Positions 22,077 through 25,655 of a stretch of 64,000 bases of DNA are shown here, piece after piece. The DNA is taken from NCBI RefSeq assembly GCF_026013645.1, contig NZ_CP110224.1, positions 2,976,001-3,040,000 on the forward strand. Reading direction: 5' to 3'. The stretch comes from Virgibacillus natechei. Its GTDB lineage: Bacteria > Bacillota > Bacilli > Bacillales > Amphibacillaceae. The position numbers and the translations under genes are program-made. The notes beneath the pieces were generated by a model that searched no databases, was not told the DNA's origin, and was given only the letters and a program-made list of their open reading frames with translations. Numbering within the stretch: the first letter of the stretch is position 1; each line of letters opens with the position of its first letter.

Positions 22077-23378
22077 CTAATACCTCTTCAATTCTTCAAT
22101 CGTTCTTTTTAAATCTATTATTCCCTCTTCATTGGTTTGAATATAGTCTTTTCGCTGAGCAATGGTCATTGTTTTACCGTTTCCTAACCTTGCTGGTTTC
22201 TGAAGTTTTAGGTTTTGTTCGTTCGATTCCCGCAATACTTCTTTCATGGCTGCTTGTCTTCGTGCCCGCTTATTAGCTTCACCTTCTATTTTTATTTTGA
22301 TACAGAGCTTATCCTGTTCCAGCTGCAAGTACCAGCCGTTTCTTAGCGAGCTACACCAGAAACCCCAGAATCCCTTCCTAGGATTGGATACTTTCCCCCA
22401 ACCTCCATCAATATGTTTTTGAACTTCCTGGTAAAATCCCTGCCATTGATTTGCGCCCCATGTCGTGATAGGCTTTTTTCTAAAAGCAGCAATGCTATCC
22501 TCCAGTTTTTGTAAATGACGATAATAATCAAGGAAGATCGGATTTTTTACACCATTTGCTTTTCCCCTTTTCAATACTTCAAGCATCATCCTTCGCTTAA
22601 ATGGAACATAGCATGCTTTTTCAACCGAACGGTAATGGCTCTGATCAGCTATTTTATAGTAGATCGGTAATTGAATTAGTTCTGGAAATGCCTTCTCCAC
22701 TGCTTTTCGGTAACGCACCAGCTGGTTAGAATGATTTTTGGTATTGGTTTTATCTTCAATCAACACGGCATATGTGTCATTGATAATAGCTAGAATATCA
22801 AGTTCTTTGAACTGACGCTTTATTTTTATAGACTTTATATCAGGAACAGGAATGTTATGTCTATTAAAAATGACAGCAAGAAAATCAATCGCTGCTTCAT
22901 GTAATGACCTGTCTAATGAACGATAAGGCTTCTCGCTCCAGGACATGAACCAACACAGGAATGCGTCTTGTGACAACTCACTTGTTGCAAACTCAAACAG
23001 GTTTGGTGTGTCAATATCAGCAACGCGGATGTCGCGGGCAATTTCAAGTAGTTTCTCGATATCATGATTGCCTGTATAGTCCTCCCAGTTCTCTAAAGCA
23101 GTCAACTCCTCCACATGCACTGGAGGGTGTAATAACGCTTCACCTACATCAAAAATTCTCCCTTCTTGATTTGGATATGCTAATAACAATCGGTCTTCAC
23201 CTTGTTGTGCAATTACTTCAGGGACAAGTTCAATACGCTTCATGTAGCCACACTTTTCCTCACATATTAGGGCAGGGTAAGCGTCAATTTCTATTCCACC
23301 ATCTTCTGTTTCGGTGATATCCTCCCAGGCATCCTCTATTAAATTAGCTCCGCAGTGTGGGCAGGTCTCTGTGTACAT
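22077..23378 (-). CDS. PD-(D/E)XK nuclease with N-terminal zinc ribbon
   Basis: 433 residues. A Cys pair 'CPHCGANL' at the N-terminus and 'CEEKCGYMKR' near residue 38 form a likely zinc ribbon. The nuclease core near residues 190-235 shows 'KELDILAIIND' and 'AVLIEDKTNTKNHSNQL', a D...E-x-K arrangement typical of PDDEXK_4-type proteins. The C-terminus is basic. It is followed by the smaller nuclease gene on the same strand (88 bases apart) and sits between two flagellin ends. A stand-alone defence or DNA-processing role is likely. A fragment of the same 3' end occurs at 18021-18092. Confidence 0.8.
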   Translation of the reverse strand: MYTETCPHCGANLIEDAWEDITETEDGGIEIDAYPALICEEKCGYMKRIELVPEVIAQQGEDRLLLAYPNQEGRIFDVGEALLHPPVHVEELTALENWEDYTGNHDIEKLLEIARDIRVADIDTPNLFEFATSELSQDAFLCWFMSWSEKPYRSLDRSLHEAAIDFLAVIFNRHNIPVPDIKSIKIKRQFKELDILAIINDTYAVLIEDKTNTKNHSNQLVRYRKAVEKAFPELIQLPIYYKIADQSHYRSVEKACYVPFKRRMMLEVLKRGKANGVKNPIFLDYYRHLQKLEDSIAAFRKKPITTWGANQWQGFYQEVQKHIDGGWGKVSNPRKGFWGFWCSSLRNGWYLQLEQDKLCIKIKIEGEANKRARRQAAMKEVLRESNEQNLKLQKPARLGNGKTMTIAQRKDYIQTNEEGIIDLKRTIEELKRY

Positions 23379-23466: not shown

Positions 23467-23958
23467 TTATTTAAAATATTGTAAGAGGCTATTAAAAGTA
23501 TATGTAAAGTTATTTATTTCGCTAGATTTGGTCATGTTACCAAAGTAAAATATATTATATGCTGCCAGTAAGGTCTTAACATCACTGGAATTACTGGATG
23601 TAACAAACATTCCAATTCTATGAAAATTTTGATTAACACCCCGCTCTGTATCAAAACAAACGCCTAACCATTCTCTCCCTATTTGTTTCGTTAGATTCTC
23701 CTTATTATAATTTTTGCATTCAATTGTTAACGGAATATCAAATCCTGTAACATTAAATCCTTTCCCTTTATTTCTAGCATCATTTGCTTGCTTACATTCA
23801 ATAATACTTATATCAATTTCATGGCCAACTGAAGAACGACCATTCACTTCGATACCTAAATGCAATTCCAATTTTCTACCTGATATTTTATTAGTTATTT
23901 TCTTTTTTCTAAAGCCATCACGAAGCGCTCGAATAACTTGCAAAATATCATCATCCAA
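23467..23958 (-). CDS. Restriction-endonuclease-like protein (Mrr-type fold)
   Basis: 163 residues. TTG start at 23958 with AAGGCGGTG upstream. The catalytic pattern of a PD-(D/E)XK fold is visible: 'VGHEIDISIIECKQA' followed by 'FDIPLTIECKNYNKENLTKQIGREW', giving E...D...E-x-K. A one-domain nuclease with no methyltransferase or specificity partner nearby. It reads toward the larger nuclease gene and starts 32 bases after the flagellin terminator. Confidence 0.75.
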   Translation of the reverse strand: MDDDILQVIRALRDGFRKKKITNKISGRKLELHLGIEVNGRSSVGHEIDISIIECKQANDARNKGKGFNVTGFDIPLTIECKNYNKENLTKQIGREWLGVCFDTERGVNQNFHRIGMFVTSSNSSDVKTLLAAYNIFYFGNMTKSSEINNFTYTFNSLLQYFK

Positions 23959-23990
23959 TTGTTTTCACCGCCTTAAATAGTTTTAAATGA

Positions 23991-24023
23991 AAAGGCTCCG
24001 GAATATGTTGATCCGAAGCCTTT
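23991..24023 (-). terminator. Flagellin terminator
   Basis: Stem AAAGGCTCCGGA/TCCGAAGCCTTT with one mismatch lies 17 bases past the TAA of flagellin exon 3. Its presence directly after exon 3 supports 24040 as the genuine end of the flagellin gene. Confidence 0.8.
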
Positions 24024-24039
24024 AATAAAATTGAAAAAT

Positions 24040-25655
24040 TTATTGCAATAACTGCAATACTCCCTGTGGTTGTTGGTTGGCTTGCTTTGCCGCTACATCT
24101 TTCAATCGTAGAATAGACTATATCTTCACCCTTCAACTTCAAAGGGGCTGGGCACTTCGAATGATGCTTTCATCACCCTACGAATCTCATTGCCATAGTA
24201 TTCACGTTAGGCAGTGCATTCTAGTCGTTGAACCTTCACCAGGCTTTCGCCACAGGTGCTTGGCTGCTGATTGTCCATTGTTTCATTGTTTTGTTTTTCA
24301 AACCTTCACGTCTGCCGTTTCCAGCTACGTTGTGGTACAAAACACTTTAGGATGTTCCAGCAATTCACCCAGTTATTCTCTAACCCGTTACCAGATTAGA
24401 CGCCCTTCCCATCAAATTACTGCAGAAGTTGTAAAACTCCTTGAGGCATTTGTTGGGATTGAGCTAACATTGATTGTGATGCTTGTGAAAGGATATTGTT
24501 CTTCGTGAACTCCATCATTTCTGCCGCCATCGTGCGGCCATTTGCTTTAACAAATGACTAGACTATATCTTCACCCTCTATACTCTAGTAGGGGCCGGGC
24601 ACTTCGGATTCAGAGGTCCAAGCTGTTCCTCTTTCACCTACGAATTTCATCACCATGGCATGTGCGTTAGGTGGTTTATTCTAGTCGTTGAACCTTCGCC
24701 AGGCTTTCGCCACAGGCGCTTGGTTGCTGATTGCCCAATCCTTCTTCTTTTTAATTCCTTCACGCTTGCCATTTCCAGCTACGTTGTGGAGAAGAAAGCT
24801 CTAAGGGGTTTCCAGCAATTCACCCGGTCGTACTCACTAACCGTTACCAGTTAGGACGACTGTGACTTTTACTGCTTATGCAGCAGCTAAGTCATAATCA
24901 ACGTCACGAATACGAGATTCTGCAGCAGTTAAGTTTTCTGCAGAAGCTCCAAGGTTGTTAATTGTGTGATCTAGACGGTTTTGTGTAGCACCTAGATTAG
25001 AACGCTGGCTTGATACAGTGGTGATTGCATCATCGATTAAGCCAAGTGCATTATCGAATGCACCTTCTTCTTCAGCAAAATTAGTTACATCAATTGAGCC
25101 TTCATCTCCACTATACAATTCTAAACCTTCAGCTGACATATCACCAATATTAACTCTTAATTGTTGTTCTTCGTTTGCACCAATTTGGAATACGAGTTCA
25201 GTTTGACCTTCTCCAAAGTCACCTGTTAACAAATCTTTTCCGTTAAACTGAGTACGGTCAGAGATACCTTGGCTATCATCTGTTCCACCTAACTCTTCAA
25301 CTAAGGCATCAATTTCATCTTGAATGGCTTGTAAGTCATCCGAATCTTGTGTACCATCGTTACCTGCCTGAACTGTCAATTCACGTACTCTTTGGAGAAT
25401 TGAATGTGTCTCATTCAATGCACCTTCAGCAGTTTGGATTAGAGAAATACCGTCTTGCGCATTCTTAGATGCCATTTCCAATCCATTAATCTGTCCACGC
25501 ATTTTTTCAGAGATTGCTAGACCAGCAGCATCGTCCCCGGCCTTGTTAATTCCAAGTCCTGAAGAAAGTTTTTCTAGAGATCCTTGTACCGCATTGTTGT
25601 TGCTTTCCATTTGTCGATGTGTGTTTAACGCCGAAATATTACTGTTAATAATCAT
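24040..25655 (-). CDS. hag: Flagellin, split by two group I introns
   Basis: Structural protein of the flagellar filament. Exon 1 is 25655-24897 (253 codons, standard N-terminal D0/D1 beginning 'MIINSNISALNTHRQMESN'). Exon 2 is 24530-24424. Exon 3 is 24106-24040. The joined length is 933 bases, 310 codons plus stop, with frame kept. The first junction restores the canonical 'RDVD' plus 'MAAEMMEFTKNNIL'. Unspliced, exon 1 runs six codons into the intron and stops, losing the C-terminal D0 helix. After removal of intron 1 alone, translation reads '..PQGVLQLLQ' and stops at 24417-24419 inside intron 2, giving 290 residues. Removing both adds 'KDVAAKQANQQPQGVLQLLQ'. GGAGG lies at 25666-25670. Boundaries are inferred from frame, terminal G, P1 and P10 pairing. 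Confidence 0.85.
24107..24423 (-). ncRNA. Group I intron 2 in flagellin
   Basis: 317 bases, no internal protein. The P7 strands are GACUA (inside CGACUAGA, 24221-24227) and UAGUC (24116-24120). The conserved AAGAUAUAGUC and AAUCAGCAGCCAAGC blocks are present and match intron 1. P1 pairs exon-end CUUCU (24428-24424) with GGAAG (24409-24405), including the expected U-G at the splice site. P10 pairs 3'-exon AUUGAA with UUUGAU (24416-24411). The last intron base is G. The stop codon of the intron-1-spliced reading lies in the P1 loop. Confidence 0.85.
24531..24896 (-). ncRNA. Group I intron 1 in flagellin
   Basis: 366 bases, no internal protein. It shares long conserved blocks with intron 2: GGTAACGG, GGTGAATTGCTGGAA, CAATCAGCA.CCAAGC, TGTGGCGAAAGCCTGG, GGTTCAACGACTAGA and GGTGAAGATATAGTC. 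P7 strands are at 24681-24687 and 24561-24565. The 3' end is G. The 5' site after GTTGAT restores the canonical flagellin reading; P1 there is short (UGAU with GUCA), so the exact 5' site is less certain than for intron 2. Group I introns in flagellin genes are known in thermophilic Bacillaceae (Geobacillus). Confidence 0.88.

Follow-up and report, generated by a model that had tools for sequence, protein, structure and literature searches.

We analysed a 64,000-nucleotide stretch of the Virgibacillus natechei genome (contig NZ_CP110224.1, positions 2,976,001 to 3,040,000), here called the window and numbered from its first letter. On its minus strand a flagellin gene (25655-24040) is interrupted by two group I introns (Rfam RF00028). 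Exon 1 (24897..25655, minus strand) runs from M1 to ...SRIRDVD and was placed using Pfam and the break in the matches of relatives at query positions 63-64. Intron 1 (24531..24896) lies at DVD/MAAEMM and is matched by RF00028 at 24862-24539 (66.4 bits). Matches to this model give no exact intron ends, and these were taken from relatives: the matches of those lacking intron 1 stop at query positions 63-64 and restart at 431. Exon 2 (24462..24530) is a block of 23 codons, MAAEMMEFTKNNILSQASQSMLA, between the two introns. Intron 2 (24085..24461; 377 nucleotides) lies at MLA/QAN, with an RF00028 match at 24436-24093, and its ends were placed using relatives and intronless genes. It is followed by exon 3 (24040..24084), 14 codons, QANQQPQGVLQLLQ, and a TAA.

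The gene has two possible ends. If intron 2 is spliced, it ends as ...NNILSQASQSMLA/QANQQPQGVLQLLQ and stop; if intron 2 is retained, the frame continues into the intron and ends as ...NNILSQASQSMLA/QSQQMPQGVLQLLQ, with the stop at 24417-24419. Each end is 14 residues long, and the predicted C-terminal peptides of the two forms end in SMLAQSQQMPQGVLQLLQ and SMLAQANQQPQGVLQLLQ. We call the intron-encoded end (14 codons, QSQQMPQGVLQLLQ, and TAA; 24417..24461, minus strand) the mimic. It lies with its stop in the helix and loop of P1 (24402..24464), as judged by folding and by comparison of own with swapped strands. An earlier note, made from the letters of the window, had placed a stop within the P1 loop of intron 2, had read the frame without intron 1 as ending at this TAA (...MPQGVLQLLQ) and had seen a second copy of the terminal motif in exon 3. 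These observations were borne out, the group I assignment by Rfam.

The splice sites proposed in the same note fared differently. It had placed the 5' splice site by pairing of CUUCU with GGAAG and the 3' junction at CTACG/ATTGAAAG, so that splicing would extend the protein by about 20 residues beyond the first C-terminal motif. The 5-base-pair pairing exists in the window, the junction to ATTGAAAG is in frame there, and the stretch that it would add is stop-free in 107 of 107 introns. The pairing is, however, worth only -4.9 kcal/mol, against -15.2 kcal/mol for a P1 starting at GCU/CAA; the latter is matched to its own guide strand, and both pentamers occur together in only 5 of 104 introns. 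A G precedes the ATTGAAAG junction in 74 of 107 introns, against 107 of 107 for the terminal G before CAAGCC at the start of exon 3 (exon 3 being located by protein alone), and the added stretch changes without an excess at third positions (0.25, 0.41 and 0.35 for the three codon positions). This version is therefore scarcely credible. Splicing would add nothing to the length of the protein: a 14-residue intron-encoded end is exchanged for an exon 3 end of equal length.

Several lines of evidence converge on the boundaries that we prefer, ...SQSMLA/ 377 nucleotides /QANQQPQGVLQLLQ and stop (24461-24085), which are supported by comparison. The catalytic core of intron 2 scores 71.4 bits (gathering score 50) and covers the whole model (1-253 of 253). 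In P1, exon GCU and the following C pair with GGGC, and UCCCA of the mimic pairs with UGGGA, the 3' strand being 24411-24402; the U.G pair that is a hallmark of group I splice sites is present (GCU/C with GGGC). The P1 segment of the window folds with a z score of -3.18, and 2 of 200 shuffles were as good. Across 104 introns, P1 formed from an intron's own strands averages -10.96 kcal/mol, compared with -8.56 when strands are swapped between introns (0 of 200 shuffles) and -8.12 with shuffled guides (0 of 100); in 7 of the 104 rows the guide strand was cut using a looser pattern. All 103 intron-bearing genes compared have GCT as the alanine codon preceding the 5' splice site, but only 46 of 83 intronless genes do (Fisher p 3.6e-16); among all 109 rows of the survey described below, 108 have GCT and one has GCC. 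Such fixation is expected if the U of this codon must pair with a guide G.

Intronless flagellins correspond to the exon 2-exon 3 product. Their commonest tails among 83 genes are QANQQPQGVLQLLQ (19) and QANQQPQGVLQLLR (18), and a solved flagella chain (8jmv) has a tail of the same kind. Exon 3 is thus a normal flagellin end and not, as the earlier note had allowed, part of a separate decayed flagellin.

To learn how widespread the mimic is, we used family-wide (159 genomes), order-wide (397) and class-wide (398) surveys, together with named loci. The family-wide query contained the mimic, while the order-wide and named-locus queries did not, and all counts concern the loci fetched rather than every match. 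The first survey gave 203 core matches. After setting aside 14 duplicates, 73 introns resembling intron 1 ('site-A-like', not de-duplicated) and 7 others, 109 distinct introns remained at the intron 2 site (site B). These rows were picked by an upstream ATG-(Leu)-GCN pattern, which may overlook introns whose exon ends differ; three loci (L261, L262 and L263) were recovered only by a relaxed pattern. An in-frame 14-codon mimic followed by a stop is present in 105 of the 109, and exon 3 has 14 codons in 107 of them. Because so many distinct introns at the site carry it, a chance origin of the mimic is excluded. A class-wide search added 36 further distinct introns, 34 with the mimic. Across the surveys, at least 28 family codes, all within one bacterial class, include the mimic: 24 codes (f32 being represented only by a mimic-less intron) plus f48, f49, f54, f62 and f77 from the class-wide search. 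Named carriers include Oceanobacillus, Paraliobacillus and Aquibacillus.

A genus-mate of V. natechei (locus L097) provides the simplest case. Its intron 2 site is occupied and intron 1 is absent, and its plain reading frame encodes a flagellin of 360 residues with the mimic at its end. Flagellin_C scores 103.5 bits on this form and 105.7 bits on the spliced form, and both matches reach the last position of the model.

Among the seven matches set aside, locus L121 is a damaged gene whose tail resembles a mimic, L123 (two matches) is apparently damaged, L171 combines a site-B-like 3' end with a different 5' part, L135 and L212 resemble site-A variants and L002 is not a flagellin. The last (G000:C1:2060521-2060663) matches part of the group I core and lies elsewhere in the genome of the window itself, outside any flagellin gene. 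Two other loci deserve mention. In Oceanobacillus piezotolerans (L045, 5975 onward) the site-B core is matched only to model position 182 and the intron seems cut or interrupted; no exon 3 was found for it. Locus L071, whose record is titled Pseudomonas sp. ISL-84, holds a Bacillus-type flagellin with both introns, and the title may be wrong.

The C-terminus of flagellin matters for assembly. Both versions of it appear, from their patterns of change, to evolve as protein. As a descriptive measure we used pN/pS (the ratio of non-synonymous to synonymous differences, each per site), pooled over pairwise comparisons in which related pairs are not independent. The 96 unique mimics give 0.23 over their full length; codons 1-5 stand at 0.40, codons 6-14 at 0.148 and codons 9-13 at 0.064, and in the other frames the value rises to 0.99 (+1) and 3.65 (+2). 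Third positions account for 63% of the diversity in mimic codons 6-14 (permutation p 5e-5). For exon 3 (69 unique) the value is 0.144, and for exon 2 it is 0.40. The first mimic codons are looser in protein terms, which fits a second job as a strand of P1.

This pairing of the first codons is what speaks for regarding the mimic as a by-product, either of RNA structure in the P1 loop or of repeated copying from flagellin genes, the peptide itself having no role. The variation in codons 6-14, however, falls chiefly on third positions and does so in a single frame, and none of 104 mimics is as near to its own exon 3 as to the nearest other mimic. We regard this explanation as very improbable. Equally little credence can be given to the idea that intron 2 no longer splices, leaving the mimic as the sole C-terminus and exon 3 as a relic. 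It is true that the retained frame alone gives a complete flagellin, as in L097. But the low pN/pS of exon 3 and its constant length (14 codons in nearly every row) are not those of a relic; the terminal G, P1 and the Rfam core have all been kept; and four mimic-less introns in genes that look whole retain exon 3.

The mimic also agrees with the exon 3 of its host. The last residue is identical in 132 of 137 pairs (R/R 105, Q/Q 21, G/G 6) and position 8 in 130 of 137 (G/G 111, A/A 14, S/S 5). Recent copying does not explain this, because third-position identity between a mimic and its own exon 3 (0.433) equals that with shuffled partners (0.436) and, as noted above, no mimic lies nearest its own exon 3. 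Gene conversion between the two was accordingly considered and rejected, there being no signal of it in either comparison (104 rows). Common descent may explain part of the agreement. On well-supported branches of a tree of intron cores, the last residue changed in 4 independent pairs, a mean of 3.7 of them the same way (sign-test median p 0.125); for position 8 the figures are 4 pairs and 2.4 (median p 0.5), and for the whole tail 7 pairs and 5.3 (median p 0.06). No independent pair goes the opposite way. This suggests that the mimic follows the residues of its host.

Intron 1, 23 codons upstream of intron 2, serves as a control within the same gene. It has an in-frame stop after YDLAAA and no copy of the downstream exon. 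In 72 of the 73 site-A-like introns a tail of 5 or 6 residues precedes the stop; the exception is a tail of 8 in the damaged locus L115. An early in-frame stop in the 5' part of bacterial group I introns, which should keep ribosomes off the core, is described in passages of two reviews (PMC3073962, PMC3984707; these and the papers cited below are known to us from such passages). A stop inside P1 is therefore ordinary for such introns, as both the 72 introns and the reviews indicate, and it is the replacement protein end that is special to the last flagellin intron site. Read-through into intron 1 gives the open reading frame (ORF) 24876-25655, which carries Flagellin_N but only positions 1-52 of the 86 of Flagellin_C (Pfam), so intron 1 must be spliced for a whole flagellin to be made.

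Taken together, the observations probably mean that intron 2 carries the end that it displaces, so that retained and spliced messages would both give full-length flagellin and the mimic would act as a fail-safe. If the transcript is read before the ribozyme has folded and cut, the ribosome would pass the 5' splice site and end at ...MLA/QSQQMPQGVLQLLQ, completing a flagellin. If splicing comes first, exon 3 would be joined and the protein would end in ...MLA/QANQQPQGVLQLLQ. The two forms would be equal in length, each with a complete C-terminal helical region, so that a failure of splicing would not be a failure of flagellin. A ribosome on a retained message would finish a valid C-terminus on the mimic and halt ahead of the ribozyme core. 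While on the mimic it would also open P1 and compete with splicing, since the early mimic codons form the 5' strand of P1 and the guide begins a few bases past the stop; ribosome and formed P1 should thus be mutually exclusive. The boundaries of intron 2, the mimic frame and its stop, P1 and the constraint on both ends are all supported by comparison among genomes. From these we infer that both messages may be made and translated, that both proteins may enter filaments and that the mimic may be kept because splicing is incomplete.

Several points weigh against a fail-safe role. The mimic is missing in 6 of 145 introns. Two of these are in broken host genes (L105 and L115), and the other four (L150, L232, L243 and the second copy in L014) have host genes that seem intact around the site, which means that the mimic is not indispensable. 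The tails of three of the latter before the stop are QFEQIAA (L014, second copy), QLLVA (L232) and QFEQVA (L243); L014 does carry the mimic in its first copy, which lies on that contig too. Loci with a match running through exon 3 were fetched preferentially, so decayed introns are under-sampled. The residue match with exon 3 depends on few independent changes (4-7 pairs), and mimic codons 1-5 are, at a pN/pS of 0.40, less protein-like than the rest.

The earlier note had proposed that splicing chooses the C-terminus. The idea of a choice between two ends stands, and the arrangement behind it is widely conserved; the splice sites and the contrast of a short with an extended protein do not stand. 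Whether such a choice is regulated is a separate question. A regulated switch would mean that temperature, growth state or ribosome load shifts the ratio of spliced to retained message and that filaments or their assembly differ in properties between the two C-termini. Two conserved and slightly different ends would suit this, as would features of the mimic's own (serine at position 2 in 77 of 105 mimics and, apart from one exception, in 0 of 107 exon 3 sequences), and flagellin introns of thermophilic Bacillus are reported to splice in a temperature-dependent way (PMC4853749). Yet the ends differ by few and mild residues, the mimic tracks host residues in a way that points to sameness, and the special first codons are accounted for by pairing in P1. 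We consider a regulated switch rather unlikely, and the fail-safe role seems the more likely of the two because the ends are so similar. It is a tentative further thought that the race between ribosome and ribozyme at P1 sets which of the two equal-length C-termini is made, so that the composition of the filament might report temperature or translation load.

If the fail-safe reading is right, intron 2 would be a self-splicing intron that has rendered its splicing unnecessary by supplying a copy of the protein end that it displaces. This would bear on how introns persist in coding genes where ribosome and ribozyme compete, and the competition could be tested in a simple gene. There is also a practical consequence: gene finders will mistake the intron's own copy for the flagellin end, as happens for L097 and L140 when ORFs are simply listed.

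Introns 1 and 2 both lie between codons, and joining the intron 1 donor directly to exon 3 (24896-24085, minus strand), with exon 2 skipped, would keep the frame. Exon skipping with tandem group I introns has been reported in another system (PMC10136302). Downstream of exon 3, a terminator-like hairpin followed by a T-rich stretch (23990..24023, minus strand) can be seen by eye, in agreement with the terminator of the earlier note, although the terminator scan lists no minus-strand site there. About 2 kb downstream is an orphan flagellin-like C-terminus (RPIATQANQQHQGVLQLFQ and stop; 22053-21994, minus strand) to which no other part of a flagellin is attached; it may be what is left of a second copy. 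Elsewhere in the window are two Bacillaceae-1 RNAs (48581-48516 and 55030-54964; 39.4 and 38.8 bits) and a T-box leader (47427-47158; 120.1 bits).

The ORF list shows no minus-strand ORF of at least 40 residues lying wholly within intron 2 of the window and thus no candidate homing endonuclease there. A related intron at the same site (L267) has a 242-residue ORF (1204-1932) matching LAGLIDADG_2 (1.4e-19); the flagellin frame of that locus ends in a mimic, with Flagellin_C matched to its last position. Introns of this kind are therefore able to carry a homing enzyme. Two minus-strand ORFs lie between exon 3 and the orphan tail. The first (22077-23378; 433 residues) matches PDDEXK_4 (5.3e-7) and has relatives in 11 of 156 family genomes; the second (23467-23958; 163 residues) has no Pfam match and, among the same 156 genomes, matches the window's own genome alone. 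At 11 and 1 genomes of 156, neither was retained as the homing enzyme of the intron (flagellin adjacency in the 11 was not searched).

Group I introns in flagellin genes are known from Geobacillus stearothermophilus and thermophilic Bacillus (Hayakawa and Ishizuka 2009, 2012, through PMC3984707 and PMC4853749). They are like those described here in kind and in host gene, and it is their splicing that is reported to be temperature dependent (PMC4853749). No duplicate flagellin C-terminus is described in the literature passages searched, which did not include the primary flagellin-intron papers, so it may have been noticed earlier. Other bacterial group I introns share with intron 2 an in-frame stop in the 5' part (PMC3073962, PMC3984707), but here the stop is delayed by a 14-codon copy of the displaced end. 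A surface layer gene of Clostridium tetani (PMC3919590) resembles the present case in that a bacterial gene for a surface protein gives more than one product owing to a self-splicing intron. That intron is, however, of group II and undergoes several splice reactions, whereas here the alternative would be retention of a group I intron.

The nearest parallel comes from mitochondria, where mobile ORFs (mORFs) bring their own C-terminus to atp6 of Allomyces macrogynus and to atp6, atp9, cox2 and nad3 of Glomus (PMC3630166). There, too, the element lies near the 3' end of the gene and supplies an in-frame replacement C-terminus, with the native end left downstream, and both the duplicate C-terminus and the downstream native end are found in the window. 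As that paper describes them, mORFs are endonuclease ORFs, with no ribozyme described that removes them, and the native end of atp6 and cox2 is not found in the mRNA. The element in the window is not an endonuclease ORF. In flagellin intron 2, unlike in mORFs, a ribozyme could rejoin the native end, and both ends are under protein-like constraint.
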